From a virus, in IMG/VR virus record IMGVR_UViG_3300031612_000049, positions 1 to 29,107 of that record: a DNA stretch of 29,107 nucleotides, one strand, 5' to 3'. The position numbers and the translations under genes are program-made. Positions 3,060-24,516 of this stretch are shown here, piece after piece (position 1 is the stretch's first letter; the number at the start of each line of letters is the position of its first letter). The notes under the pieces are model-generated. The model was not told the origin of the DNA. It saw only the letters and a program-made list of their open reading frames with translations, and did not search any database.

Positions 3060-3488
3060 ATGGATGTAAGTAGTTTGAATGGTAAACACGAAGAAATGAT
3101 TCACAAATATGTGAAATTTGTTCAGGGTACTGCATATACAGCTACTGAAGGGTATGAGAGTAGTAAATTCCTAGGATTCAATGAGATAATAGCAAATATA
3201 ATAACATATACCAATTCATTTAACAATATGTTGGTTTCATCTAACAGAAGAACTGAATGGGCTTATATGACTCCTAATTTAATGCTTTATGCGACAATAG
3301 GTTTCTTGGAGGGAGTTAAAAATGATGAAAACAGCGATTTAATTGATGAGTTATCAGAAGATTTGTTTGAAACAACTGTAGATTTTGTTGGAGAAACAAC
3401 AGATATTTTAGATGATATTGAGAAAAAAGAAGAAATACAGAGAAAAATACTAACTAACCAAAAAACACAGAATGAGTATAACAATTAG
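3060..3488 (+). CDS. Hypothetical protein preceding the tail assembly chaperone
   Basis: 142 residues, largely helical and acidic in its last third (ENSDLIDELSEDLFE, then a run rich in Asp and Glu). I see no membrane segment or known motif. It overlaps the chaperone gene that follows by 17 bases, implying coupled translation and a likely role in tail assembly or packaging. The central part (IIANIITYTNSFNNMLVSSN) looks like a buried helix. It could be a second chaperone-like protein, but there is no direct evidence. Confidence 0.65.
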   Translation: MDVSSLNGKHEEMIHKYVKFVQGTAYTATEGYESSKFLGFNEIIANIITYTNSFNNMLVSSNRRTEWAYMTPNLMLYATIGFLEGVKNDENSDLIDELSEDLFETTVDFVGETTDILDDIEKKEEIQRKILTNQKTQNEYNN

Positions 3489-4182
3489 CCTGAAAAGCCA
3501 AAATTTAGAGAGAGATGTAGTAATTCCTGTAGAATGGAAGGATATAAATGTTCAGTATTGGGGAGAATTATCTACAATAATTAAGAAACACTATAAAGAT
3601 GCTTCTGATGGAGTAGTAAAGAAAGAGAATGAGGCTCACGAACTACTTAAACTTGGATTTATTTCGGATTTAACCGATAATACAGAGCTTAATCCTTCTC
3701 AAACATTAAAAATGAACGCTGATATATTCTCGTATATGACAGGATTAACAAAAGATGAAGTAAATCTTGTTGATGTAGATGTAATAACAAGGGTAATAGA
3801 TTGTATAAATAAATTAACAAAAGAATATAAACCGAAAGAGCTAAAGTCATTTGATTTTGATGGAGAAACTTATCATTTCCCATCTGAGTTTTTGAGAAAA
3901 GAAACTTATGGGGATTTTATTGAATCTACTCAATTAGATATGTATATTTCTGATATGGATAACGGAAGGTATGATGTACTTCCTGAGCAAATGGCAATAC
4001 TATGCAGGAGAGAAGGAGAGGAGTATGATGAAGAATTAATCCCTGAAAAGGCAGATAAATTCAGAAAACTTACAATGGATGTCATTTGGGAGTTCAGTTT
4101 TTTTTTGACTCATCAAAGCAAAAAATTAACGACACTTTTCCATACATATTCGGAGAAAAAACAACAAATACAGGAACTGTGA
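3472..4182 (+). CDS. Tail assembly chaperone, short form (gpG-like)
   Basis: 236 residues. The N-terminal half has the mixed beta then helical look of siphovirus tail assembly chaperones (KSQNLERDVVIPVEWKDINV, then helices around 40-130). The decisive evidence is arrangement: a T9 run near codon 210 and an open -1 frame overlapping the last 80 residues, as in lambda G/GT and related systems where frameshifting makes a second longer chaperone. These proteins coat the tape measure while the tube polymerises and are absent from the virion. Here four to five tail genes lie between it and the tape measure, which is farther than usual. Confidence 0.75.
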   Translation: MSITISLKSQNLERDVVIPVEWKDINVQYWGELSTIIKKHYKDASDGVVKKENEAHELLKLGFISDLTDNTELNPSQTLKMNADIFSYMTGLTKDEVNLVDVDVITRVIDCINKLTKEYKPKELKSFDFDGETYHFPSEFLRKETYGDFIESTQLDMYISDMDNGRYDVLPEQMAILCRREGEEYDEELIPEKADKFRKLTMDVIWEFSFFLTHQSKKLTTLFHTYSEKKQQIQEL

Positions 4183-4409
4183 ATACAAAAGGACTATATC
4201 AAACCTACATTGCCCCGTTTGGTTGGTTAAATAGCCTTTATATGTTAGCTGAGAAAGGTGTGTTTAATGTAGATGGGAAAAATGGGATAGATAGCGTTAA
4301 AGAAACTAATCTGTATAATGTCTTGACATATCTTAGTTGGATAACAGCAAAAAATACATACGAATCTAAGGTTCAAGAGAAAATTCACAATCCAAACAAA
4401 ATAATGTAA
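3472..4409 (+). CDS. Tail assembly chaperone, frameshifted long form (gpGT-like)
   Basis: A -1 shift on the T run at 4098-4106 would join codons 1-211 of the chaperone to the overlapping frame that continues to a stop at 4407-4409, giving about 312 residues. The extension (FDSSKQKINDTFPYIFGE..., to HNPNKIM) has no good start of its own: its only nearby ATG, at 4086, lies before the slip site inside the chaperone. It ends one base before the next gene, so it fills the space exactly as an expressed C-terminal domain would. In known systems the extension recruits the tail tube protein. I infer this from layout; no protein data are available. Confidence 0.75.
4098..4107 (+). other. Slippery site for -1 ribosomal frameshift
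   Basis: Nine T followed by G. In the chaperone frame it reads AGT TTT TTT TTG ACT, so both T TTT TTT (4098-4104) and T TTT TTG (4101-4107) fit the X XXY YYZ heptamer pattern. I see no strong stem-loop directly downstream. Confidence 0.75.
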
Positions 4410-4410
4410 C

Positions 4411-6006
4411 ATGGCAATAGTAAGATTAACAGATATAGTAGCAACAATGAAGAATAAATGGACTTATGGAGATAAGTTCTTTGGATATACAGAGGAATTT
4501 AATGATAATCATAATACTCAGTACCCTTCTTTACTCATAACACCACCTAATTCAGTTTACCCTGAAGTAACTCCTAGAAATGGTTGGGAGGAATACTCAT
4601 TTGAGGTTTATTTTTCAGATTTATATAACAGAACAGACCAAGCTAACGAAAGTATAGAGCAAAGATGGGACAACTTACAAGATTTAGCTAATGAGTGGTT
4701 AGATATGTTTCTAAAGCATTATATGGGGACTCAAGCGAATAAAACTACTATATCATACTTAATGGATGGTAGTTTAACAATAGAAAGAAAGAAAGAGGTT
4801 GCTAATGACCAACTTCTTCAATTAAAGATGAATTTTGGATTTAGAATATTCAGCAAGTGCTTTGCACCTGTATCTAACTACCCAAATCAAATAAGTGGAT
4901 TGACTTCTTGGCTAAGAGCTGATAGTAATGTAACATTTAGCATACCAACTAAAAAAGTAAGTATTGTTGGAGATGGTTCAGGTAATGGAAATGGAGTTGT
5001 ACAAGCAGTTGCAAGTGGACAGCCATTAAGATATACTTATGGTGGTGGAGCTTTAGATAAAACAATGGTTACATTTAAAAATGATATTTTAGATTCTCAA
5101 AATAATTTTACAACAAGTTTATCTAATGAACGGTTCTCAATATTTGAAGTTAGTAAAATAAATGCAGTAAGTGATGCTGTTTTTGGCTATTTTAATCTGC
5201 TTGGTTCTGAATTAGTTACTAACGGAGATTTTGCTAATTGGACAAGTGATAATCCTGATAATTGGAATGTTGTTAATGAGAATGCTAATAACTTTGTAAC
5301 TCAATTTGGTACTTATGCGAAAATAGTTTCTAATAATACATCATCTATAAACATTAATCAATCTATATTTACTGTTGGAAAAACATACATAATAGAATTA
5401 GATGCAGTTGTAAATAATGGCAATGTTGTAGGTTTAAAATTAAACGATGCAACAGCAGATTCCAACATAGGAATTGTTAATTCTACAGGGCATTTTACTT
5501 TTTCCTTTACAGCAGCAGGAACTAGTTTTAATATAAATAGAAAAGGTGGAGGTGTTACAGATATATTAATAGATAATGTATCAGTAAAAGAAGTTGAAGA
5601 ATCATCTATAGAGATGGGAACTAATGCTGCAGGGAACTATGAGGTTTCAGTAAGTGATGGAACAACAACATTATTAGAGAAAACAGCAACAGTAGATACA
5701 GGTAAATATCATATTGCATCTTTAAGAAAATCAGGTCAAACAATTCATTTTAATTACTATGATTCAGCAAATACTGTTTATGCACCTGAGTATGATGCAG
5801 CGTTTGATGGTACAAAATCCTTTGAGCAAGATAAATTTACAGTTGGATGTGTAAAGGAAAGTAATGGTCTTATTCCACCTTCAGAAACTAACGCTAGATA
5901 CTTAGATGGAGATTTTCAAGAGCTTATTATTTATGATAAAAAATTAACAGATGCAGAAACAGAAAAAGTAGTAGATTATTTAAACAAAAAATATAGAATA
6001 TATTAA
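4411..6006 (+). CDS. Tail protein with LamG-like domain interrupted by a CBM-like module
   Basis: 531 residues in apparently three parts. Residues 1-150 (to FGFRIFSKCF) are a mixed alpha/beta domain typical in position and size of tail completion or baseplate-associated proteins. From about 160 (SGLTSWLRADSNVTFS ... VVGDGSGNGNG-like) a concanavalin/LamG-like lectin fold begins; it resumes about 395 and closes with the usual FQELIIYDKKLTDAE and YLNKKYRIY ending. Between them, about 268-393, sits a module starting ELVTNGDFANWTSDNPDNWN and ending DILIDNVSVKEV, the hallmark strands of CBM4/9-type carbohydrate-binding modules. This suggests a receptor or glycan contact at the tail. Domain calls are by eye. 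Confidence 0.7.
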   Translation: MAIVRLTDIVATMKNKWTYGDKFFGYTEEFNDNHNTQYPSLLITPPNSVYPEVTPRNGWEEYSFEVYFSDLYNRTDQANESIEQRWDNLQDLANEWLDMFLKHYMGTQANKTTISYLMDGSLTIERKKEVANDQLLQLKMNFGFRIFSKCFAPVSNYPNQISGLTSWLRADSNVTFSIPTKKVSIVGDGSGNGNGVVQAVASGQPLRYTYGGGALDKTMVTFKNDILDSQNNFTTSLSNERFSIFEVSKINAVSDAVFGYFNLLGSELVTNGDFANWTSDNPDNWNVVNENANNFVTQFGTYAKIVSNNTSSININQSIFTVGKTYIIELDAVVNNGNVVGLKLNDATADSNIGIVNSTGHFTFSFTAAGTSFNINRKGGGVTDILIDNVSVKEVEESSIEMGTNAAGNYEVSVSDGTTTLLEKTATVDTGKYHIASLRKSGQTIHFNYYDSANTVYAPEYDAAFDGTKSFEQDKFTVGCVKESNGLIPPSETNARYLDGDFQELIIYDKKLTDAETEKVVDYLNKKYRIY

Positions 6007-6009
6007 GAT

Positions 6010-7836
6010 ATGGCACAAATAAGAAGTGGAACAACTGCAGTATGGGGACAAATACCAAAATGGGGTAGCACTGAAGCTATGTGGCAACAGCAAAGTAAAT
6101 TTGCAGGTAATTCAGTAGTTTCTGCAAATCTACCTATGGTGTATCAAGTTATATGGTCAGGTACAGATGTAAATGAATCATATATTCCTACAGTTTCAGG
6201 GGATATTGTAAATGTTATATTCAATGTGCTTGGAACTACTCAGTTCCCCACACCTGCTCTTACTGCAGATTGGGATTTAATAGGTAGCATTAAAAAATCT
6301 AGGGATATACCAAACACAAATATAGTAAATAATAACGAACCTGCGAGTCATAGTTTTACAGTTGATGTTTCAAGAATGGTAGCTGACCAACTATCTTACT
6401 CATTAGTTCCCATAGGCAAGGGTTCTTGGATGAATACAGAATTTGGAGGTATGAATGGTGGTGCGCAAAAACAAGATAATATTACAGAATCTATTAGTCC
6501 ATATAATGTAACTAGAAATGGAGCTTATAGGTCTATAAGAGTTAAGTGTACGATTGAAATGCTGAACGCTAATGGAGAGATAGAATTATCTACAAGTGTA
6601 GTTACTTCTGCTCCCTATGTAAGGGCTATAAATTCTGCACCTAACTTTAGTTCAAATACATATCTTAATCAAATGAGGTCTTTATTGCAATGGACGCCTG
6701 ATTCAGATTCTCCTGCTAGGGCAATGACTAATAGCCCTAATGTTACACTAACCACAACCGACACACCTTCATACAAAAAACCTGTATCTCTCTCTGATGA
6801 GGCAGAGTTTTTATACTTTTACGCTAGTAATACATTTAATGGAAGCGACCAATCCTCTCCTGATTACTATAATCTTTATGAAGTTTTTGTCAAGACTTAT
6901 AATGCTGCAGGAAGTCAAGTATTGAGTTTTGTTTTAGGTTCTGAATATTATAACTCCTCTAAAGGAGTTGTTGAGATTTCATCAGATATATCTCATAGTT
7001 TTAATCATCAAACAGCAAGTGGAACTACATTTGCTCATGCTCAAAATCAGATATGTGTTCAAAACATATCCCCTGCATTTATAGCTGACCACGCATACAC
7101 TCCTCAAAATGCAAATTACCCTTACACCTCTAAAATAGCAACTCCTATAGGTACTAGTGTTACCCATTACAGGGTTTATGTTAGAGGTAATTATTATAGT
7201 GATGCAGGAGCTGTTTGGACGCAAAAAAGAGCTAGTTCGGTTTATTGGTACAGTATAAATAGAGAAGAAGAAAATCCTGTATATGAAAATGTTAGATTTC
7301 ATTGGTTAAATACAGCAGGAGGTATAGACTCGTACACAGCAAGAAGAAATGTACTAGAATCTATAAGTTCAAGCAAGTCTGTTATGGAAACAAAACTACC
7401 TAGCAGATATTATATGCAAAGTAAGGAAAATGCCGCAGGAACAGAATACACTCCTCAAGATTATCATAATGATGGAATGAGAGGTTGGAATACTTATCAA
7501 GGTGGTACAGAGGTTCTAAGTGTTGATGCGAAAATAAACAATAGCGTATATACAGAGCCATTAAGTGCATTAGAATCTAAGTGGCTAAGAGAAATATTCC
7601 AATCTCCAAATGTTTGGATAGAGGATAAGGCTGAAGATTCAGGGGGAGTTAATTATAAAGCAGATGCTCCTTACCACATGCATAAGCTAAATCCACTACT
7701 AAGACCTTCACAAACCATATACAAACCTGTGATTATAACTAACTCAGAAGTTGTATCTTTAGACCAAGAAAAAGGATTAGTAATGTATAATATAGAATAC
7801 ACTCATTCTCAAGGAATACTTACTCAAAGAAATTAA
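6010..7836 (+). CDS. Tail structural protein, family unassigned
   Basis: 608 residues, beta-rich and high in Ser, Thr, Asn and aromatic residues, with no signal peptide or membrane span. It is translated in a tight run with its neighbours (3-base gaps both sides, each start preceded by an A/T-rich TTAAnATATG context). The N-terminus (MAQIRSGTTAVWGQIPKWGS) and the C-terminal third (VWIEDKAEDSGGVNYKADA, EKGLVMYNIEYTHSQG) look like a folded virion protein. Position between a lectin-bearing tail protein and a large baseplate-like protein points to the distal tail. Unlike three neighbours, I do not see a clear inserted CBM-like module. Function within the tail is inferred only. Confidence 0.6.
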   Translation: MAQIRSGTTAVWGQIPKWGSTEAMWQQQSKFAGNSVVSANLPMVYQVIWSGTDVNESYIPTVSGDIVNVIFNVLGTTQFPTPALTADWDLIGSIKKSRDIPNTNIVNNNEPASHSFTVDVSRMVADQLSYSLVPIGKGSWMNTEFGGMNGGAQKQDNITESISPYNVTRNGAYRSIRVKCTIEMLNANGEIELSTSVVTSAPYVRAINSAPNFSSNTYLNQMRSLLQWTPDSDSPARAMTNSPNVTLTTTDTPSYKKPVSLSDEAEFLYFYASNTFNGSDQSSPDYYNLYEVFVKTYNAAGSQVLSFVLGSEYYNSSKGVVEISSDISHSFNHQTASGTTFAHAQNQICVQNISPAFIADHAYTPQNANYPYTSKIATPIGTSVTHYRVYVRGNYYSDAGAVWTQKRASSVYWYSINREEENPVYENVRFHWLNTAGGIDSYTARRNVLESISSSKSVMETKLPSRYYMQSKENAAGTEYTPQDYHNDGMRGWNTYQGGTEVLSVDAKINNSVYTEPLSALESKWLREIFQSPNVWIEDKAEDSGGVNYKADAPYHMHKLNPLLRPSQTIYKPVIITNSEVVSLDQEKGLVMYNIEYTHSQGILTQRN

Positions 7837-7839
7837 AAT

Positions 7840-10800
7840 ATGATTAAACTTCAGATACTAGATTATAAATATAGTGATACTGCTAGTAATCAATTTAACC
7901 TTAATAATGTTTCTGCACCTCAACAGGTAGATGTAGATTCAGGAACTCCTGATACTGCAGGAGATTGGTCAAATGAAGAAGAAACTAGTGTTAAGTATCT
8001 AGGCAGTTCTTCTGCTGTCCAGTACTATGAAGATATAGCTACAGGATTAACAGCTAATTACACTTATAGATTTACATTAACTATATCAGGTTACGCAGGA
8101 ACAGGTAATTGTGGATTTTCATCTCAAGGAAATGTAGGAGTTTCAGCAGGTAGAACATTATCAGGAGATGGAACTATTACAGGAACTTTTGTTGCTAATG
8201 GTAGTAATTTAAGGATTTTTGCAAGAGATACTCAAACTAATGTAGTTTTCTCTCTTGTATCGTTAAAGGAAGTGTATCAATGGGATATAGAAGATAGTAG
8301 AGAAGCATCTATAGCAGTAGGTGTAGGTTCTGCTAGGTATTTAACACCTGTAACAGGTTTATTAACAGCAGGGACTATATATGATGCATCTATTACTGTA
8401 GATGGGTATAGTGGTTCAGGAGATATAGGATTCTCATCTGCAGGTACAGGTGGTTCTTCTATGGGTTTTGGAAATAATCTTAAGGCGACTGCTGATGGAA
8501 CTACAACTTACTCATTTACTGCTTCTGCTACTGAAGGGTTGAGGATTCTAGCTCAATCAGGAGTAGGATGTACTTCTTTTAAAGCTACTGTTTATCAGAG
8601 AGGTCAAATTGATTTCAGAAGAAGTTTAGTAGGAGAATTAGATGTTGGAGATTCTGAGGATTTTCCGTTAGCAATGAATTTTTCTATATCTGAAGCTAGG
8701 AATTTGAATTCAAGAACAGGAACATACAGTAAGACATTTAAAATACCTGCTACAAAGAACAATAATATAATTTTAAAATCATCATATTATGAAGGCTCTT
8801 ATATAGAATCAAATACAATATCTAATCAGAAAAAATGCAGAATAGAGGTAGATGGTGGGTTATTTATTGAAGGATTCATTCAGGTAACTGCAATAGGTAA
8901 GGGTAGTGAGCCAAAGTATTATTCATGTGTATTTTATGGAAATAATGTGGATTGGGCTGCATCATTAGACAATAAACTATTAATGGATTTAAGTGTGAAT
9001 AATGTTGAAGATGGAAGTGGTTGGGATAATCTTAATTTTAAAGGAAACGGAACAGGACTTAAGGCTAATAGAAATGCAATAATGGCGTCTTGGAAGGCAG
9101 ATAGCGCTACAAGAATGACTAGTACAGCAGGATTTGAAACTGCAAATACTAATCCTATAACTTACCCTCAAGTAGGTTATGGAGCTACAAATGTAGGAGG
9201 TCTATCAGGTTCTCTACAACTTCTTATGACTGCTTCTGAGAAGTATTTTGGTAATGCAGCAAAGGTTGGTTATTCAGGTTGGTTTGATGATGGAACTGCA
9301 ATGCCCACTCCTGAAACCATACAAATGAATTGGCGACCTGCTATATTTATTTATGATATTATGAAGCAAATATTTTTGCAAGAAGGATATACTCTTATTT
9401 CTCAATTTATGGAAGAATCTAGTACATTAGGAGTTGCAGCAAATTTTAAAAAACTAGTAATGCTTCTTCCTAATTTTCTCCATAACAATGTAACTAAAAG
9501 AGTTGCGGATAATAGTGTTTATATTTCATTTAATGGAAATGGTTATATAACAGAAGCAGGCTTTACTTCAGGCGCCCTTACTAGGACGCAATTGACTTGG
9601 AGTGGAAATACTATTCAATGGGGCGCAGGAGGAAATATGGATATTATTGATGATGGCTCTATGTATAGTACAGGTAGTGGATTTTTTACTATTAAAGAAT
9701 ATGGTTATTATGATATAAGTACATCTAATATTGGTGGTTGGTTAGATTCAGTATGTGAGGGAACAAGTTCTGACACTAATTTAACGAATGTTTGGTATGT
9801 TCAAATTAGAATAGAAGTGCAAACAGTAGGGCAGTCTAGTTGGAATATAATTGATAGAATGGATGGATTTCCTCAAACACTTTATCCTTATTCTGAAACT
9901 TGTGCTGATACAGGTGGACTACCTCCTTCTGCTGACAAATCTTTTAATTTTGAGGGGATTACAATAGAAAATCAATGGCTTAATAAAGGAGATAAAGTTA
10001 GATTTACATGCACTAAAAAAGCATCATGGTCTGATACTAGTATATCAACAGGCACTAGAACTATAGGTTATGATTTATCTGTTTGGGGTGGCGAAAACCC
10101 AACAGGATATACATCAGGTAGTAGTTCATCTTCTAATGGTCATATAAGTATAGTTCACAAGGGAGAGAGGGTTGAGTTTGGGCAAACATTTGATTTGAAA
10201 AATGTTATAGATAACTCAAGCACTCAAATGGGGTTTTTAAAGGGAGTTATACACGCTTTTAATCTTCAGATGACAACAGATACAACACAAAGGAGTGTTA
10301 CTATGGAGCCATTTGATGATTTCTATAAGAATAAAAATGAAGCTTTAGATTGGAGTAATAAGGTAGATTTATCTAGGATTCAAGAAGATAAATGGGTTCA
10401 GACTGAATTAAGTAGAGAGATTATTTTTAAATATAAATCGGATTCTAATGATAAGGTTGTAGAGCATAGAGGTAATTCATATTGGGATGGAATACATGAT
10501 GAATACCCTTACAGAGAATTTCTTAGCACCGAGTTTAAGTCAGGTGCCACCACATTTGAAAACCCATTCTTTGCAGGAAGTTACAGTTCTACTGATGGAG
10601 AGAGTTATTATGGTAGTGGTTTTGGAGATATGGCAGCATTAACACCATATAGAGCAAATCTTTGGGGTCTTTGTGATACAGGAGCTGTTCCAACTCCTTC
10701 AAGCTCCTGCAGGCCTCCTTATGCTTATAATTTTATGCCTAGACTTCTTAATTATGTCAAAATGAGTGAATACGTTACTCCTGTTAATCCTACTAGATTT

Positions 10801-11274
10801 CAAACAAGGACTCAGTATTGGGCGCTTGCTGATGATTTTTACTTAATTCCCGGATTTACAGGTACTTATCAATATAAATTTCTTTGTTTAGCTTCTAGTT
10901 ATGATATGTTTACTGATTCTGTTAATCCTAGACAACCATTAACATATAATAGTCTTAATCAAGGTACTTTTGTGAGGTCTAATAATACAGTTACATCTCC
11001 TACTCCTTTCAGAGGTTTATATCAAACTTACTATCAAAAAATGATAGAGCAGGTTAAATTAAATCCAAGAATAAAAACAGTATATGTTAATCTAAAATTA
11101 TCTGATATAAATAATTTAGATTTAAGAAAATTAGTTTATATTGATGGATATTATTACAGAATAAACAGAATCATAGACTATAGACCAAATAATAATGAAG
11201 TTACTAAAGTGGAATTAGTTCTTTGGGAAGATGTAGGTACTCTACCTATTGACATATCATTTAATAATAATTAA
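7840..11274 (+). CDS. Large distal tail/baseplate protein with two tandem inserted modules
   Basis: 1144 residues. A strand MIKLQILDYKY starts the protein and the core resumes about residue 260 with QIDFRRSLVGELDVGDSEDF, followed by FSISEARNLNSRTGTYSKTF and KIPATKNNN, a motif I associate with Bacteroidetes phage baseplate or tail-tip proteins. Between them are two similar modules: SGYAGTGNCGFSSQGNVG (about 85-103) matches DGYSGSGDIGFSSAGTGG (about 188-206), each followed by a hydrophobic strand (NLRIFARDT; GLRILAQSG). The first ends LVSLKEVYQ, like the ending of the module in the gene at 4411. The C-terminal part (KTVYVNLKLSDINNLDLRKLVYIDGYYYRINRI) looks like a hub-type beta domain. Large size and place before the tape measure suit a baseplate hub or host-contact protein. 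Confidence 0.65.
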   Translation: MIKLQILDYKYSDTASNQFNLNNVSAPQQVDVDSGTPDTAGDWSNEEETSVKYLGSSSAVQYYEDIATGLTANYTYRFTLTISGYAGTGNCGFSSQGNVGVSAGRTLSGDGTITGTFVANGSNLRIFARDTQTNVVFSLVSLKEVYQWDIEDSREASIAVGVGSARYLTPVTGLLTAGTIYDASITVDGYSGSGDIGFSSAGTGGSSMGFGNNLKATADGTTTYSFTASATEGLRILAQSGVGCTSFKATVYQRGQIDFRRSLVGELDVGDSEDFPLAMNFSISEARNLNSRTGTYSKTFKIPATKNNNIILKSSYYEGSYIESNTISNQKKCRIEVDGGLFIEGFIQVTAIGKGSEPKYYSCVFYGNNVDWAASLDNKLLMDLSVNNVEDGSGWDNLNFKGNGTGLKANRNAIMASWKADSATRMTSTAGFETANTNPITYPQVGYGATNVGGLSGSLQLLMTASEKYFGNAAKVGYSGWFDDGTAMPTPETIQMNWRPAIFIYDIMKQIFLQEGYTLISQFMEESSTLGVAANFKKLVMLLPNFLHNNVTKRVADNSVYISFNGNGYITEAGFTSGALTRTQLTWSGNTIQWGAGGNMDIIDDGSMYSTGSGFFTIKEYGYYDISTSNIGGWLDSVCEGTSSDTNLTNVWYVQIRIEVQTVGQSSWNIIDRMDGFPQTLYPYSETCADTGGLPPSADKSFNFEGITIENQWLNKGDKVRFTCTKKASWSDTSISTGTRTIGYDLSVWGGENPTGYTSGSSSSSNGHISIVHKGERVEFGQTFDLKNVIDNSSTQMGFLKGVIHAFNLQMTTDTTQRSVTMEPFDDFYKNKNEALDWSNKVDLSRIQEDKWVQTELSREIIFKYKSDSNDKVVEHRGNSYWDGIHDEYPYREFLSTEFKSGATTFENPFFAGSYSSTDGESYYGSGFGDMAALTPYRANLWGLCDTGAVPTPSSSCRPPYAYNFMPRLLNYVKMSEYVTPVNPTRFQTRTQYWALADDFYLIPGFTGTYQYKFLCLASSYDMFTDSVNPRQPLTYNSLNQGTFVRSNNTVTSPTPFRGLYQTYYQKMIEQVKLNPRIKTVYVNLKLSDINNLDLRKLVYIDGYYYRINRIIDYRPNNNEVTKVELVLWEDVGTLPIDISFNNN

Positions 11275-11276
11275 AA

Positions 11277-12008
11277 ATGGAACAAATAAATAGTAGAGGA
11301 CAAGCATTAGAAGATGGTTTAGATGTATTCATATCTGCACCATTCTTATCAGGAGAATATTCATCTTATAGTTCTTCATTCATACCTTCAACAATATCAG
11401 CTACAAATATAGAAACCTCAACTGTTTCTTATGCTACAGAAGCTGTGGGTTTGGCTAATCTACCTACTTATAGTGGTTCAGGTTGGTTTAGATTTTCTTC
11501 AAATGGAACTTCACAAACTTCTGTTACCCCTCCAATCTCAGTTGATAATAGCATAAAGATTAGTTCAGCAGTAACTAGGGCAGGAGTTTCTAGCGTTTCA
11601 GGTGTATTTCAAGAGTTAAAACAATTATATAGAGGCTCTGAATATTCTGCCACTATAAAACTACACCAAAACACAAATACAGGAACTGTTAAGGTTTCAA
11701 CGGTTTACAAGTCCTCAATTCTTCCTTATCCTTTACTTGAGTCAGAAATAAAATCTTATGAAATACCTTCAAATGAATTAACTTTTAATTTCAAGGCTTA
11801 CAGTACTGCAGATATTATTTGTATTACTTTTGAATCTACTGTTGATGGTAGTTTAGTTGATATATCTTCAATTAGTGTTCAAGAAAAAAAAGAATATAAA
11901 ATGCCTGTAGTTACTGATATAATTTTAGTTGGCACTTCAAAGGTATTAAGGAGGAGGGGTAATCCTAGCCTACCATTAGATGAAGGAGAACCTCCTTATG
12001 CTGAATAA
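11277..12008 (+). CDS. Small tail protein with an inserted beta-module
   Basis: 243 residues. The conserved-looking ends (MEQINSRGQALEDGLDVFIS and KMPVVTDIILVGTSKVLRRR) read as a short protein split by a module of about 160 residues (about 40-205). The module has the pattern strand, YRGSEYSATIKL, a break, ELTFNFKAYSTADIICITFE, then VDISSISVQE, much like the modules in the genes at 4411 and 7840. The tail end (RRRGNPSLPLDEGEPPYAE) is basic then proline-rich. It shares its stop with the start of the next gene (TAATG). The function of the core is not recognised. Confidence 0.6.
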   Translation: MEQINSRGQALEDGLDVFISAPFLSGEYSSYSSSFIPSTISATNIETSTVSYATEAVGLANLPTYSGSGWFRFSSNGTSQTSVTPPISVDNSIKISSAVTRAGVSSVSGVFQELKQLYRGSEYSATIKLHQNTNTGTVKVSTVYKSSILPYPLLESEIKSYEIPSNELTFNFKAYSTADIICITFESTVDGSLVDISSISVQEKKEYKMPVVTDIILVGTSKVLRRRGNPSLPLDEGEPPYAE

Positions 12009-12517: not shown

Positions 12518-15500
12518 ATGGCATTAAAAAGTAAGGTAGCAATAGAGGTAGTCATCAAAGACATCAAAAAGATTGCTGATTTAAAAAAGGGATTAAAAGA
12601 GTTAAGAGCAGAGCAGAAAAAACAAGAAGCAAGGTCTAAGACAGGACAAAAGCAATCTCACGCAAATGCAAAGGCATACAAAGAAAGAGCAAAGTCAATA
12701 AAGGAAAACTCAAAATCATTGAGGACTCTTAATAAGGACATGACAGGTGCTAACAATAAAACTAAAGCCGTTACTAAATCATCTAATGGAATGGCAAAGC
12801 AATTCGTAAAGGGTGCTGCTGCTATTGGAGTTATAGTTGGTGCATTTAGATTAGTAAATAGAGTCGCTAGTTCCATAGTAACTACATTTTCTGACTTTGA
12901 ATTTGTTATGGCTAAAGTTAATGCAGTTTCAGGGGCTACTGAATCAGAGTTCTCAGCACTAACTAAATCTGCAGAGGATTTAGGTCGTTCAACATTCTTT
13001 ACTGCTACGCAAGTTGGAGAATTACAATTAGCATATTCTAAATTAGGATTTACAGCACAAGAGATACTAGATGCTACTGAAGCAACTCTTGATTTAGCTA
13101 CTGCAACAGGAACAGACTTAGCTAGGGCTGCACAGGTAGCGGGTGCTTCTATTAGAGGTTTTCAATTAGATGCTAGTGAAGCAGGTAGAGTCGTAGATGT
13201 TATGGCAGTTGCGTTTTCAAGTTCAGCATTAGATATTGAGAAATGGAATACGAGTATGACTAAGGTTGCTCCTATTGCAGCTATGGCGGGATTTGAAATA
13301 GAGGAGGTTGCTGCTATTATGGGTAAGCTTTCTGATACAGGTATTGAGGCTTCTATTGCAGGTACATCTTTGAGGAATATATTCCTTAAAATGCAAGACC
13401 CTTCATCAAAGCTATCCAAAACATTAGGTCATACGATAACAAATTTAGATGAAATGTTAATAGCATTTAAAGGACTGCAAGATGAAGGTACTGACCTTAC
13501 TGATGTTCTTGGTTTTATGGATATTAGACAGGTAGCTGCGTTTGGTACTATGCTAGAGGGTTCTGATGATATAGCAACATTGAGGGATGCATTATTAGAA
13601 GCTACAGGAGAAGGAGAGAGAATGGCAGATATTGTAGGGGACACGCTACAGGGTTCTATGCTTAAGTTTACATCTGCAGCTCAAGGAGCAGCAATAGCTG
13701 TTATGAAAAACTTTGGTGGTGGATTGAAAAAAGCATTTTCATCATTAGCTAAATTCTTAAACAAATTAGTAGAGAATGAGGATGCTATGGCTAAATTAAC
13801 ATCTAATATTAAGTTAGCAGGAAAATGGATTGGATTGACAGCAAAAGCACTCTTAAGTTATGTTGTTGGTGCTAAATTAGCGGCTATGTGGACTGCAACA
13901 ACAAGTTCTGCATTTTTTACTATGATGACAGCCTCTCAAAGAGCTGCAACAGGAGTTAGAATTCTTACTGTAGCTTTAAGAACATTTACTTCTGCTCTTA
14001 TAACTACAGGGGTAGGAGCATTAGTAGTTGCGTTAGGATTTCTCGTTTCTAAAATGTTTGAAGCTAAAGATGTTATAGCTTCTATTCCTACTACATTAGA
14101 AAATGTAGACAACGCAATGTTAGATACTGAAAAAAAAACTAAAGGGTTAGAAAAAGAATTAGAATCTCTATCTATAATTAGAGAGAAAATGATTTCTCTT
14201 TCTAAGGAAGAAGGAAGGGATTTAAAAGAAAATTCTAAACTAAGCTACACATACACAGAGCTTAAAAAGAAAGAAAAATTATCTATATCTAACATTAATA
14301 AGGTTATGAAAGTTCATAATCAAAACCTTGTAAATGAAAAAAATAGCATTGAAGATATAACAACTGCTACAGACACTCTTATAGAGGCTATGAATAAAAA
14401 GGCTTACGCTAATATATATACAGATATGAGAGCCAATATTCTAAAGTCAGAGGTTGAGGGCGATTTGCTTCTTAAGCAGATAAATGAATTAGAAACAGGA
14501 TTTTCAAACGCTTTTGGAGTTTCCTCAAGCATTACGAATATAATTAAAGATGTTGAATCTAATTTTGAAATAGGTTGGAGTAATATAATGCCTTCTGCTG
14601 CTGAGAAGTTTAGGGCAAGAAGGGTTGTTCAGGTTAATAAGCTTTTAAGTGAGATGGATATGACTATAGGTCAATTTAAAGAATCTATACAGGGTGGTAG
14701 TTTTGATTCTAAGATTGCAGAACTTGAAGAAACTATAACTTCTAAGTTAGGAGGTATAAGCATAACAGATTTATTGAATGGAGAAGAAAAAGATAAAAAA
14801 GCTAAGCCTGAAAGCAAAGCTGCTCAGTTTGAAATAAATGAAATGATAAGAAAAAGAGAAGTCTTTTTCAGCGAAAACAATGCAATGTTGGATAATGATA
14901 AGTTATTTAATGCAGGATTACTTGAGGCTAAAATTGCAGGAGTTCAAGATTTCTTAGACCAAGACAACAATAAGAAAGAGGGAACAGAAATTGCTACTAG
15001 ACAAATGGCAGGGCTTCTAAGAAAACAAAGAAAAGCTAACAATGCAGAAACCTTACAAGATTTAAGAACTACAGCTACTGAAAATATAACTTTACAAAAA
15101 TATTTTTTAAAGAATAAAATAAGTACAGAATTTGATTACGCTAAAAACGTAATTAAAATAAAACATAACCTTTTAACAAAGGAATTAGAAATTTTACTAA
15201 AAGGAGAAGGAAACGAAAAGGCTATAGCAGATAATAGAAGTAAAATGCTAACTCTTGAGCTTCAGGAAGGAAAATTAAATCTTAAGGAGAGTGAAAGAAT
15301 TGAAAAAAAGGCATTTGATGATAAGGTTTTTGCTCTTGAATTAGAGCAATCAACTACTATGATGAATAAGATAGAGTTTGATAATCGCATGTTACAATTA
15401 GAGGCTGATTATCTAATGGCAAGAAAGGGTTTATACGAAACAGGTGCTTTAGAATTGATTGATATTAATAATGGTATTTTAAAGAATAACATTAAGGTTA

Positions 15501-16258
15501 ATCAGACGCAAAAAGAAATGATGGAAGAACAGGTTTCTGCTATGGGAGGTGTAGGTAGCGCCTTAACTTCATTGGCAGGAGATAATGAAGGTCTTAATTT
15601 TGTAAAAGAGGCAGGTAATAAAATATCTATGGTGGCTAATACTCTATCTGCTATAAGCTCTCTAAGCACAAACTTAGAATCTCTAGCAAACATAAGAAAA
15701 GCTGCATCAGAAAATTTAGATACAGGTTCTATACTAGCTAACACAATAGCTACAACTCTTAGTATTATACCGAAAGCAATATCTGCCGTTCTAAAATCAT
15801 TTAGTGGGCCTTTCGGTTTATTTGGAGCAATAGCTGCATTTGCTTTTATAAAAAAACTAACAAGTTGGAAAGGAGAGTATGGAGGTATAGTTGAAGGGGG
15901 AGGTAAGTTTGCTAATGGAGGAATGGTTCATGGAAAATCACACGCACAAGGTGGGGAGAAATTCTCAGTAGGAGGTAGGGTAAATGAATTAGAAGGTGGA
16001 GAAGCCGTTATAAACAAAAGAAGTACAGCAATGTTCAGGAATCAATTATCATCTATGAACGAAGCGGGTGGTGGTGTTAAGTTTGCAGACGGAGGATTGC
16101 TTAGTTCTCCTTCATTTACAGAATCTAATTTCGCTGCATCTAATCAATCTGCAATGATAGGAGCTATGCAAGGTCAAAGAAAAGTAGTAGTAGTGGAAGC
16201 TGATATAACGGATAGTCAATCAACAGTTAGTGTAATTCAAGCAAATGCATCATTTTAA
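12518..16258 (+). CDS. Tail tape measure protein (TP901 family)
   Basis: 1246 residues that set tail length and are ejected with DNA; at roughly 0.15 nm per residue a tail near 185 nm would be expected (inference). Residues 1-100 are a basic coiled coil (KKIADLKKGLKELRAEQKK). The TP901/PhageMin tail domain spans about 124-390 (FEFVMAKVNAVSGATESEF, LGRSTFFTATQVGELQLAYS, ASIRGFQLDASEAGRVVDVM, EVAAIMGKLSDTGIEASIAG). Hydrophobic segments occur about 435-460, 490-515 and 1083-1115. Long coiled coils fill 540-1020. The C-terminus (about 1120-1185) has the Gly-rich GGMVHGKSHAQGGEKFSVGG type repeats common in tape measures. It is the longest gene here, as usual for the class. Confidence 0.95.
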   Translation: MALKSKVAIEVVIKDIKKIADLKKGLKELRAEQKKQEARSKTGQKQSHANAKAYKERAKSIKENSKSLRTLNKDMTGANNKTKAVTKSSNGMAKQFVKGAAAIGVIVGAFRLVNRVASSIVTTFSDFEFVMAKVNAVSGATESEFSALTKSAEDLGRSTFFTATQVGELQLAYSKLGFTAQEILDATEATLDLATATGTDLARAAQVAGASIRGFQLDASEAGRVVDVMAVAFSSSALDIEKWNTSMTKVAPIAAMAGFEIEEVAAIMGKLSDTGIEASIAGTSLRNIFLKMQDPSSKLSKTLGHTITNLDEMLIAFKGLQDEGTDLTDVLGFMDIRQVAAFGTMLEGSDDIATLRDALLEATGEGERMADIVGDTLQGSMLKFTSAAQGAAIAVMKNFGGGLKKAFSSLAKFLNKLVENEDAMAKLTSNIKLAGKWIGLTAKALLSYVVGAKLAAMWTATTSSAFFTMMTASQRAATGVRILTVALRTFTSALITTGVGALVVALGFLVSKMFEAKDVIASIPTTLENVDNAMLDTEKKTKGLEKELESLSIIREKMISLSKEEGRDLKENSKLSYTYTELKKKEKLSISNINKVMKVHNQNLVNEKNSIEDITTATDTLIEAMNKKAYANIYTDMRANILKSEVEGDLLLKQINELETGFSNAFGVSSSITNIIKDVESNFEIGWSNIMPSAAEKFRARRVVQVNKLLSEMDMTIGQFKESIQGGSFDSKIAELEETITSKLGGISITDLLNGEEKDKKAKPESKAAQFEINEMIRKREVFFSENNAMLDNDKLFNAGLLEAKIAGVQDFLDQDNNKKEGTEIATRQMAGLLRKQRKANNAETLQDLRTTATENITLQKYFLKNKISTEFDYAKNVIKIKHNLLTKELEILLKGEGNEKAIADNRSKMLTLELQEGKLNLKESERIEKKAFDDKVFALELEQSTTMMNKIEFDNRMLQLEADYLMARKGLYETGALELIDINNGILKNNIKVNQTQKEMMEEQVSAMGGVGSALTSLAGDNEGLNFVKEAGNKISMVANTLSAISSLSTNLESLANIRKAASENLDTGSILANTIATTLSIIPKAISAVLKSFSGPFGLFGAIAAFAFIKKLTSWKGEYGGIVEGGGKFANGGMVHGKSHAQGGEKFSVGGRVNELEGGEAVINKRSTAMFRNQLSSMNEAGGGVKFADGGLLSSPSFTESNFAASNQSAMIGAMQGQRKVVVVEADITDSQSTVSVIQANASF

Positions 16259-17208: not shown

Positions 17209-18207
17209 ATGAATGAAAATTGGTATAACATAAATTCAAAAGCATCTAAAGTAGTTGATGTTTATATTTTTGATGAGATAGGAATGGGTGGAGTTAATGC
17301 TCAAGGATTCATTGAAGAAATCAAATCTTTTAAGGACTCCCCAATGAATTTGCACATTAATTGTGTGGGTGGAGATGTATTTGATGGAATGGCTATCTAC
17401 AATATTATAAAGAAAAGGACTGCAACTACTACAGTATATATTGAAGGTATTGCTGCAAGTATGGGAAGTGTTATTGCGTTAGCTGCTAATAAGGTTGTTA
17501 TGGCAGAGAACTCTTTATTTATGATTCACAATGCTTGGGGTGGAGCAATGGGAGAAGCTAAAGAAATGAAAAAAACAGCAAAGCTTTTAGATAAGATTAG
17601 TGGAGAGATTGCTGACATCTATGTTAAAAAAACAAAACTGCCTTATGATAAGGTAAAAGAAATGATGGATGAAGAAACTTGGTTAAATGCTGAAGAAGCA
17701 CTAGAACTAGGATTTATTGACTCTATCTCGGATGCTATTAAAGTGGCAGCCAAATATGATGTTTCTAAGTTTAAAAATATAACAAACAAGGAAATTAAAA
17801 CTAAATTAAGTATTAATATAAAAAGTAAAAAAATGACTGATGAGTTAAAAGCTTGGTTTAATGGAAAAGTTGAGGACATTATCGCTAGAGTAAAAAGTGA
17901 AAATGTTGAATCTGATTCTAAATCAAATGTTAAAGTTACTATGTCTGATGAAGCTGAAATTTTAAATAAATTTTCAGATTTTGAAACAAAAGTAGCAGAA
18001 GTTAGTGGGTCTGTAACTGAATTAGAAGGAGAAAAAGAAACTCTTACTATGGAAGTTGAAAGACTTAATGGTTTATTAAGTAAATCAAATGCAAAGGGAA
18101 CTGAAATTTCTACAGATGGCGACCCTGCAGTAGTAGTAGAAAACAAAGTAGAAGGTAGTGATACTAAATTCTGGAATGGAATTGTATCTAAAATGAATTT
18201 AAAATAA
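17209..18207 (+). CDS. ClpP-type prohead protease with fused C-terminal scaffold
   Basis: 332 residues. Residues 1-185 are a ClpP/S14 serine protease: GGDVFDGMAIYN (about 55-66), the nucleophile Ser84 in GIAASMGSVIALA, His107 in FMIHNAWG and a candidate Asp154 in MMDEETWLNAEEA, a spacing near that of ClpP. It matures the prohead by cutting the scaffold and itself. Residues 209-332 form an acidic, coiled-coil domain (KVAEVSGSVTELEGEKETLT) ending in a basic helix, as expected of a scaffold that binds the capsid protein. Met209 is preceded by AAAAAGTAAAAAA-type sequence like real starts here. It lies 18 bases before the capsid gene. Confidence 0.92.
   Translation: MNENWYNINSKASKVVDVYIFDEIGMGGVNAQGFIEEIKSFKDSPMNLHINCVGGDVFDGMAIYNIIKKRTATTTVYIEGIAASMGSVIALAANKVVMAENSLFMIHNAWGGAMGEAKEMKKTAKLLDKISGEIADIYVKKTKLPYDKVKEMMDEETWLNAEEALELGFIDSISDAIKVAAKYDVSKFKNITNKEIKTKLSINIKSKKMTDELKAWFNGKVEDIIARVKSENVESDSKSNVKVTMSDEAEILNKFSDFETKVAEVSGSVTELEGEKETLTMEVERLNGLLSKSNAKGTEISTDGDPAVVVENKVEGSDTKFWNGIVSKMNLK
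17833..18207 (+). CDS. Nested in-frame scaffold protein (probable)
   Basis: An internal ATG, in the same frame as the protease, would give a 124-residue protein consisting only of the acidic coiled-coil scaffold domain (starting MTDELKAWFNGKVEDI). Its upstream context AAAAGTAAAAAAATG resembles true starts of this phage (for example AAAAAAATAAAATTATG before the capsid gene). The same design is known for lambda C/Nu3, where the nested product is the main scaffold. Expression is inferred, not shown. Confidence 0.55.
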   Translation: MTDELKAWFNGKVEDIIARVKSENVESDSKSNVKVTMSDEAEILNKFSDFETKVAEVSGSVTELEGEKETLTMEVERLNGLLSKSNAKGTEISTDGDPAVVVENKVEGSDTKFWNGIVSKMNLK

Positions 18208-20763: not shown

Positions 20764-21015
20764 ATGGCAGAATATAAAGTAAATAGTAAGGCTCAGTTAG
20801 GATTATTACTAACAGGCAAGGGGGATGATAACATTCGTAGAGAGTTTGTAGATTTTAGAAAAGAATTAAGTCAAGCTGAATTAGCTTACGCTTATGAGGA
20901 ATTAAATATAACTGATTGGATAGATAAAACTGATAAAGCAAATGAAAAATCAACAACCAAAAAATCAACAACCAAAAAAGCAACAACAATTACGGAAAAC
21001 TCAGAAGAAGAATAA
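20764..21015 (+). CDS. Small protein with Lys/Thr repeat tail, upstream of portal
   Basis: 83 residues. ATG 20764 is preferred to the in-frame ATG 20710, because the latter lies within the promoter region and would give an N-terminus (MCDCKNEKSVI) translated only by read-through. The body (VNSKAQLGLLLTGKGDDNIR, then a helical acidic part) may be a small helix-turn-helix-like domain. The end is a low-complexity KSTTKKSTTKKATT repeat and an acidic tail, coded by tandem 15-base DNA repeats. The last 74 bases overlap the portal gene in another frame. Function unknown. Confidence 0.65.
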   Translation: MAEYKVNSKAQLGLLLTGKGDDNIRREFVDFRKELSQAELAYAYEELNITDWIDKTDKANEKSTTKKSTTKKATTITENSEEE

Positions 21016-22887: not shown

Positions 22888-23544
22888 ATGGCTGCAAACG
22901 AACACAAGAATTTACAAGATGTAAACAGGCATAATCCTATGGGTTATGAACTAGCTAATAATGAAACGGTTCTATCTAAGGGCGCAGGTTCTAGTTCTGT
23001 AGCTAGGGACGGACAATTACAATGGGCGCCTAGAGCTACTATGGGTGTAACTAACTACAAGATGCAGGGATATACTTTTGGTACTAATAATTTTCAGTAC
23101 GGAGAGGATATAGCTGATAATAAATCTCCATTCATAATGGATGTTGATTATGGACAATCTACTCTATCTGCAGGTTCTTTGGCTCCTAATCAATTTTTTA
23201 GAATTGGTCAAAGTTTTATTACTCCTGAAAATGCAAATATATCATCTATTGATGGTTGGGTTACAAGTAGTGGTTCTAATACTATTGAGGTTCTTATATG
23301 CAAGATTAGTCCTGACCCTTCTACTGCAAATATTGTTCCTACTTTACTTGCTACTTGTACTGTTGTAGGCGCAGCAAATAATAATTCTTTAGTAAGAATA
23401 AGACAAAGAATTATAGCCGAACCATTAATAAGAGAGGGAGATGTTATATTTCCAATGATTAGAGAGGTTACAGAAAGAGAGGGTTCAAATTTATATATGA
23501 ACTTATCTATACAGACAATGACATTTACACCTCAAGTAGGTTGA
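22888..23544 (+). CDS. Fibre or appendage protein with a C-terminal beta domain
   Basis: 218 residues. The N-terminus (NEHKNLQDVNRHNPMGYELA, then a VLSKGA... GQLQWAPRA) is a short attachment region that I have seen ahead of fibre-like proteins of Bacteroidetes phages. From about 85 a jelly-roll-like domain follows (FRIGQSFITPENANISSIDG, IEVLICKIS, VRIRQRIIAEPLIREGD, LYMNLSIQTMTFTPQVG). It may be a receptor- or glycan-contact protein. It lies between connector and lysis genes. Confidence 0.6.
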   Translation: MAANEHKNLQDVNRHNPMGYELANNETVLSKGAGSSSVARDGQLQWAPRATMGVTNYKMQGYTFGTNNFQYGEDIADNKSPFIMDVDYGQSTLSAGSLAPNQFFRIGQSFITPENANISSIDGWVTSSGSNTIEVLICKISPDPSTANIVPTLLATCTVVGAANNNSLVRIRQRIIAEPLIREGDVIFPMIREVTEREGSNLYMNLSIQTMTFTPQVG

Positions 23545-23546
23545 TA

Positions 23547-23780
23547 ATGACAACTAAGGAAGAAATAATGTCAATGAAGAAAGATATAGGGTCTATTAAT
23601 AGCAAAATGAATAGTATAGATTCAAAGTTAGATATGCTTACTGAGAAGTTATTAAATCCTGATACAGGGGTTACAGCTAGAGTCAATAGAAATACAGCAA
23701 TGAGAAAGGTTTTAGTTAAAGCTATGTGGGTTATATATAGTATAACTTTAGGTGCTTTGATAAAGCTATTTACATCATAA
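23547..23780 (+). CDS. XhlA-like coiled-coil/membrane protein of the lysis cassette
   Basis: 77 residues. ATG 23547 is chosen over the upstream TTG. It lies 2 bases after the previous stop. Residues 1-45 form a heptad-rich coiled coil (MKKDIGSINSKMNSIDSKLD) and residues about 55-73 a membrane span (VLVKAMWVIYSITLGALI). XhlA-like hemolysin proteins with this plan often sit next to the endolysin and holin. It shares TAATG with the next gene. Confidence 0.65.
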   Translation: MTTKEEIMSMKKDIGSINSKMNSIDSKLDMLTEKLLNPDTGVTARVNRNTAMRKVLVKAMWVIYSITLGALIKLFTS

Positions 23781-24199
23781 TGTCAAAAGACAGAAGCTAT
23801 TACGATATTCAAAGAAATCAATCTCCACCTAGAATAATAAAGTATTTTAATTTATCTGAGTTTGATAGTCCTGATGAGGTTGATTCAGGATATAATATGG
23901 ATTCTCATTTTATGAGAAAATTAGATGAGGCCAGAGAAATAGCAGGAATACCATTTAAGGTAAATTCAGGTTATAGGAGTGTATCTCATAACAAAAAAGT
24001 AGGTGGAGTAAAAAATTCATCTCACATTAAAATACCTTGTTGTGCGGCAGATATACAAGTAAAAGATAGCAGAGATAGATTCCTTGTAATCTCAGCAGCC
24101 ATAAAAGTTGGTATAAATCGCATTGGAATTGGAAAAAATTTCATACATTTGGACACAGATAAACAAAAAAGCCAAGATATTATTTGGCATTATTATTAA
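23780..24199 (+). CDS. M15-type peptidase, probable endolysin
   Basis: 139 residues with no signal peptide. The fold of D-Ala-D-Ala/L-Ala-D-Glu peptidases is indicated by GYRS (about 63-66), the zinc motif S80-x-H82 ... A90-D91 and NFIHLDTD with H123 and D125. These residues cut the peptide part of peptidoglycan at lysis. H82 and D91 are separated by two residues more than in the common S-x-H-x-x-G-x-A-x-D motif, and the Gly is lost (HIKIPCCAAD), an unusual variant that may still bind zinc. Flanked by the XhlA-like and holin-like genes. Confidence 0.85.
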   Translation: MSKDRSYYDIQRNQSPPRIIKYFNLSEFDSPDEVDSGYNMDSHFMRKLDEAREIAGIPFKVNSGYRSVSHNKKVGGVKNSSHIKIPCCAADIQVKDSRDRFLVISAAIKVGINRIGIGKNFIHLDTDKQKSQDIIWHYY

Positions 24200-24213
24200 T
24201 AAAAAAAAAGAAA

Positions 24214-24396
24214 ATGAAAGATTGGTTAATTAAAGCAATGTTAAAAAGTAAAAAATTCTGGTATGCAATATCAGCAGTAGTAGTTCCTGCACTCGTAACT
24301 TACTTAGGAGTTGGAGAAGCAACGGCAACAGATTTATTTCATTCTATTCTCGTTTTGATTTTAGGACAAGGAATAGCTGATTCATCAAAAAAATAG
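24214..24396 (+). CDS. Holin-like small membrane protein
   Basis: 60 residues from ATG 24214, taken over the upstream TTG at 24184 because the A-rich leader is immediately before it. Basic N-terminus (MKDWLIKAMLKSKKFW), then a hydrophobic span (AISAVVVPALVTYLGVG) and a second, shorter one (LFHSILVLILGQGIA), ending in Ser/Lys. Such a two-helix protein next to the endolysin is a plausible holin. Sequence alone cannot separate it from an antiholin. Confidence 0.6.
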   Translation: MKDWLIKAMLKSKKFWYAISAVVVPALVTYLGVGEATATDLFHSILVLILGQGIADSSKK

Positions 24397-24398
24397 TG

Positions 24399-24452
24399 TA
24401 TGTTTGTATTCCTTTTATGAGTGTTTTCATTTAGGAATAGTTAGTAGTTAAG
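24399..24452 (+). promoter_or_regulatory. Possible internal promoter and inverted repeat before terminator
   Basis: TATGTTTG at 24399-24406 matches TAnnTTTG, but no TTG lies at the proper distance upstream. TATTCCT (24407-24413) and AGGAATA (24433-24439) make a perfect 7-bp inverted repeat across a 19-base loop. If used, the promoter would give a short RNA ended by the terminator just downstream. Confidence 0.25.
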
Positions 24453-24485
24453 AGTGAGAGGTTAATAACTTCTCACTTTTTTTTT
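24453..24485 (+). terminator. Strong rho-independent terminator ending the lysis cassette
   Basis: AGTGAGAGG (24453-24461), loop TTAATAA, CTTCTCACT (24469-24477) form a 9-bp stem with one G-T wobble, followed by a run of nine T (24477-24485). Confidence 0.9.
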
Positions 24486-24516
24486 ATATATATAATTATT
24501 TTAATTAAATTTGACT

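Follow-up and report, generated by a model that had tools for sequence, protein, structure and literature searches.

Candidate carbohydrate-binding-like modules at variably filled sites in two tail-region genes of an uncultured phage

Three tail-region genes of an uncultured phage, here designated g4411, g7840 and g11277, had been predicted to carry similar, mobile beta-modules of a carbohydrate-binding type, each inserted into a recognizable core. Are these modules separable from the proteins that carry them, are they related to one another, and have they moved? The window analyzed, a virus record from IMG/VR, is 29107 bases long and has the gene set of a tailed phage (Table 1). Open reading frames at 4411-6006, 7840-11274 and 11277-12008 were all verified in the window. 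They are situated between the terminase and tape measure genes, and the tape measure gene at 12518 marks this region as a tail module. The three window proteins returned no significant Pfam match, and a PHROGs search produced only two weak matches, both to g4411. Related contigs comprised 36 from a scan with the g7840 core and the best 80 of 217 from a profile scan for relatives, and their gene neighbourhoods were compared with that of the window. Among isolated phages, the g7840 core matches only distant Nonlabens phages, and g4411 and g11277 match none; a single scan of host genomes found no relative, and no literature on this phage family was found among open-licence papers.

Table 1. Features of the window and the evidence used to delimit them.
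Feature	Position	Strand	Evidence or remark
Terminase large subunit gene	at 1534		
g4411 N-terminal core, residues 1-156	4411..4878	+	
g4411 Laminin_G_3-like domain, first half	4879..5199	+	alignment with insert-free relatives; Pfam in relatives
Module A, residues ~264-397 of g4411	5200..5601	+	missing in most relatives; A-family profile
g4411 Laminin_G_3-like domain, second half	5602..6003	+	
g7840 first strand, MIKLQILDYKY	7840..7872	+	conserved with and without modules
Module B1, residues ~12-145 of g7840	7873..8274	+	ends VSLKEV
Module B2, residues ~146-255 of g7840	8275..8604	+	
g7840 core, ~880 aa	8605..11271	+	conserved tail-region protein upstream of tape measure gene
g11277, one CBM-like jelly roll flanked by short tails	11277..12005	+	homologs, predicted fold
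Predicted jelly roll of g11277, residues ~25-205 of 243	11349-11891	+	
Tape measure protein	12518..16258	+	marks surrounding region as tail module
Head maturation protease gene	at 17209		
Portal gene	at 20942		
Exonuclease gene	at 24511		

The prediction that a module interrupts a LamG-like domain in g4411 was confirmed by comparison with relatives. Module A begins GSELVTNGDF and finishes IDNVSVKEV, and a first set of 12 insert-free g4411 relatives (~375-412 residues) aligned straight across its site, and among the closer of these the left flank is 75-87% identical. In the DNA alignment the insertion is clean and preserves the reading frame, and alignments against L018, L014 and L003 showed no obvious direct repeats or target duplications at its borders. 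Two g4411 homologs pass the 27.6-bit cutoff for Laminin_G_3 (PF13385), namely L161 (36.1 bits) and L017 (33.2 bits), and the L161 match is a single uninterrupted stretch spanning residues 217-376. The window's own g4411 protein has no Laminin_G_3 match; on the strength of these homologs, we assign the domain interrupted by module A to Laminin_G_3. The N-terminal core of g4411, which shows 86-94% identity to that of L018 in close relatives, except for L020 (52%), has no match in PHROGs or PDB and belongs to no known family; judged by its position, it is perhaps a tail-completion type protein. The AlphaFold model of g4411 has a mean pLDDT of 53, its input alignment misplaced short module sequences over the N-terminus, and the model is given no weight here.

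The g4411 site is rarely filled. Among 59 distinct homologs, some of them partial, it is occupied only in the window, L134, L136 and the L004-006 group. L134 and L136 carry different modules of the same A family, and the L134 insert (residues 268-374) passes the Pfam threshold for CBM_4_9 (29.0 bits vs a cutoff of 25.9), whereas the L004-006 group has an entire Laminin_G_3 domain (E 3e-16) as its insert. The A-type inserts of the window, L134 and L136 are mutually only 23-30% identical despite surrounding Laminin_G halves that are 62-90% identical, indicating that they were placed or replaced separately. In L004 (1434-3350), a whole Laminin_G_3 domain is nested within another Laminin_G domain at the site of module A.

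In g7840, the expected pair of tandem modules following an 11-residue first strand (family consensus MIKxQLLDYKY) was likewise found, as discrete pieces that relatives lack. Across 67 distinct g7840 cores, 40 have no module, 26 have one, and the window alone has two; the corresponding N-terminal lengths are 22-26, 142-174 and 263 residues, with ~12 residues between first strand and core in the module-free form. Modules at this site are A-type in L136, L161, L186 and L191 and B-type in other relatives, while those of L020, L157 and L177 were placed in neither type. Searches of PHROGs and Pfam gave no match for the core itself, and a core profile has none in the PDB. Compared with evolved Dit, g7840 precedes the tape measure gene instead of following it. 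In L018 (7536-10616), the g7840 homolog is broken into two ORFs of 393 and 597 aa, perhaps by a frameshift or an assembly error.

In g7840, identity between modules does not track identity between cores. L008 and L009 have cores that are 95% identical, yet they carry zero and one module, respectively. The modules of L136 and L191 are 72% identical on cores that are 42% identical, and those of L136 and L139 are 22% identical on cores that are 72% identical. On a maximum-likelihood tree of the core, module presence changes at least nine times (shuffled mean, 21), and every one of the nine state changes is forced by starred branches. A clade of 26 rows has no module in any member. Taken together, these sequence comparisons show recurrent gain, loss and horizontal exchange of modules at one point in g7840. 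Homologs of g11277 were not found in the 26-row clade.

The third gene did not conform to the prediction. The g11277 domain is present at similar length and in the same layout in 42/42 distinct homologs found, and in the checked relatives that lack it (L148, L151 and L153) the entire gene is missing. We therefore reject g11277 as a third insertion, as no homolog without the domain occurs among the 42; the supposed core ends correspond to short tails that flank the one domain of this protein. AlphaFold modeled most of residues 110-200 with a pLDDT of 85-92. The predicted structure is a jelly roll closest to carbohydrate-binding modules (CBMs): the model matches CBM4, CBM16, CBM22, CBM61 and a hyaluronan-binding module with Z 11-12 and rmsd 2.8-4.3 over 129-147 residues, and Foldseek matches to solved CBMs have E of about 3e-5. 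The best structural matches (overall Z 11-13) also include alginate- and porphyran-binding modules and the MAM-containing part of meprins. Because the MAM-type domains of meprins rank equal to CBMs, the fold by itself is no proof of sugar binding, and proteins too are among the ligands of such jelly rolls. From the model, g11277 appears to be a separate single-domain CBM-like protein and a fixed member of the tail cluster.

Kinship among the modules was assessed with an A-family profile seeded with module A and trained only on unrelated contigs. It recovered the seed at E 9.6e-27, B1 at 1.5e-8, B2 at 0.014 and g11277 at 0.3, with the best reversed decoy at 2.5. Profile-profile comparison by hhalign (single-comparison E values) gave E 2.7e-8 and 95% probability for the A and B families, E 1.1e-6 and 91% for A and g11277, and E 1.3e-4 and 54% for B and g11277. 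Modules A and B are thus homologous as judged by their profiles, and the g11277 domain, weak in the plain HMM search, probably shares their fold class as a very remote relative of A. The common ending proposed for all modules is present in A (VSVKEV), B1 (VSLKEV) and g11277 (ISVQEK) and absent from B2. At the nucleotide level, only short imperfect repeats were found, none convincingly tying one module to another. Matches to module A peptide patterns were found at 598 or more places in viral contigs; in the 80 loci among the matches listed, ORFs bearing A-type modules have 1-8 copies, often in tandem, and several such proteins also contain Laminin_G_3. By these sequence criteria, A-family modules abound in fibre-like genes of viruses.

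The carbohydrate-binding character that was proposed for the modules is favored by the fold of g11277, by the CBM_4_9 match of the L134 insert and, more weakly, by matches of the A-family profile to CBMs in the PDB. The B-module profile matched nothing meaningful there. None of A, B1, B2 and g11277 matches CBM_4_9 (PF02018) at E up to 10. BACON (PF13004) has no Pfam match in g4411, g7840 or g11277, and a Nonlabens phage homolog has a BACON match below cutoff.

Could the modules be ancestral, integral parts of their cores that were lost many times? The nine changes on the g7840 tree are divisible between gains and losses, and loss is easy. However, nearly all g4411 homologs are without an insert, the few inserts at that site are as divergent as described above, and an entire g7840 clade is module-free. 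Loss alone cannot yield modules more alike than their cores, and this incongruence between module and core leads us to regard repeated loss as very improbable. The adjacency of B1 and B2 raises another explanation, namely that the window's lineage simply duplicated one module in tandem. The two are homologous, with 37% identity over 93 aa, but the nearest relatives of B1 are the g7840 module of L180 (73 bits) and a fibre-like module of L062 (67 bits), with B2 scoring only 40 bits. B2 is closest to the single module of near relatives (L016, 46% identity, 88 bits). Since B1 is closer to the L180 and L062 modules than to B2, it looks acquired rather than duplicated, and B2 looks like the resident module; we consider a tandem duplication improbable.

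It could also be argued that the modules are structural spacers or stabilizers that stiffen tail proteins or aid assembly and are neutrally exchanged, without any binding to glycans. This would suit the 40 g7840 cores that do without modules and the occurrence of the same fold in MAM-type domains, and glycan binding by the modules is something that we infer. Selection on binding, however, better fits the diverse replacement seen at one site on a conserved core, as does the use of a lectin-type Laminin_G domain as the replacement, which is harder to reconcile with a fixed structural role. One occupant of the same site, the L134 insert, is also a CBM_4_9 domain above cutoff. On balance, a purely structural role seems unlikely.

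The explanation that we consider likely is that g4411 and g7840 contain fixed, tolerant sites at which CBM-like modules are gained, lost and exchanged, and that these modules may bind glycans weakly. Empty sites, alternative inserts, the nine state changes and the incongruence between modules and cores support mobile modules in both genes, in which the modules are separable from their hosts; for g11277, the original prediction of a third insertion is not supported. The insertion point would be a loop inside the Laminin_G domain in g4411 and a turn after the first strand in g7840, both structurally tolerant. An inserted domain with neighbouring ends leaves the host fold undisturbed at a tolerant loop, and both sites resemble such loops. 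Phages of this family would repeatedly gain, lose and exchange CBM-like beta-modules of ~110-135 residues there, with the module-rich fibre-like genes of related phages as the likely donor pool and ordinary recombination as the joining process. The modules would be exposed on the tail, where many copies per virion could turn weak glycan binding into avidity, and their exchange might tune which hosts are captured. The phage family thus seems to swap surface-sticking parts like plug-in tips.

Presence in the virion and avidity to surface glycans are suggested by analogy with the lactococcal 936 siphophages, in which CBMs are predicted in Dit, in the major tail protein (as the TpeX extension) and in the neck passage structure, and in which host-cell binding was demonstrated for one tail and one neck CBM (PMC6669499). 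Like the 936 phages, the window has CBM-like domains in several tail or neck proteins of one siphophage, their presence varies among relatives, and one protein carries an internal insertion. In the 936 phages the CBMs are of the BppA type and sit in proteins of known identity, and some have been shown to bind the host, whereas the window has a CBM_4_9-like family with putative binding; unlike the 936 phages, it has one module nested inside a Laminin_G domain and belongs to an uncultured phage family. The tandem BACON repeats of crAss-like and other gut phages (PMC6949934) are also putatively carbohydrate-binding domains of tail-associated proteins, with single domains duplicated and horizontally transferred, but they constitute a separate family. 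A global survey described domain mosaicism in phage receptor-binding and neck proteins (PMC10684548). The present case shares this shuffling of domains in host-interaction proteins and, unlike the survey, resolves two exact sites that can be empty, filled by alternative domains or doubly filled. Similarity to CBM_4_9 and to the CBM4/16/22/61 folds comes through the g11277 jelly roll, the weak A-family profile similarity and the L134 insert, although the window's modules themselves lack a Pfam match.

Both the decoration of siphophage tails with CBMs and the shuffling of domains were known before (PMC6669499, PMC6949934, PMC10684548). What the present case adds is a pair of exactly placed exchange sites whose occupancy is graded, recurring across an uncultured phage family, and the nested CBM-in-Laminin_G arrangement. 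The window and its relatives provide a resolved natural series (at one exact residue position, no module, one, two or another domain, on cores up to 95% identical) in which to test directly what difference an adhesion domain makes when it is joined to a tail protein. The modules also belong to an abundant viral domain family that is mostly missed by Pfam and may account for a large share of these phages' surface-binding repertoire.

A broader reading, which we offer tentatively and consider less likely than not, is that the two sites are dedicated sockets, evolved as structurally tolerant entry points at which the whole phage family exchanges adhesion domains of different folds (CBM-like and Laminin_G) recombined from fibre-like genes, so that specificity shifts while the tail machinery is left untouched, and that phages without syntenic module-bearing fibres compensate by loading their tail proteins. 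Downstream of the portal region, L010 and L014, both insert-free at g4411, carry three and two A-type copies, respectively, within fibre-like genes. The interval at 23541-24511 of the window is only 970 bases long and has no fibre-like gene; the matching interval is 980 bases in L004 and about 5.3 kb in L010. This contrast, two phages with g4411 inserts and no fibre genes against two with fibres and no insert, is suggestive only, because the interval is short in L015 (about 1.5 kb) and L017 (about 1.1 kb) as well, yet neither has a g4411 insert. The 22888-type gene is followed in L010, L014 and L051 by one or two fibre-like genes that encode A-type modules and Laminin_G.

Immediately upstream of g4411, g3472 and an overlapping -1-frame extension (window 3472-4409) form a tail-chaperone-type pair. 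A slippery stretch, AGT TTT TTT TTG, near 4096-4104 is conserved in the window and in 12/12 relatives compared, and the -1 frame beyond g3472 is open and conserved in sequence in the relatives compared, suggesting that the pair likely uses a programmed -1 frameshift.
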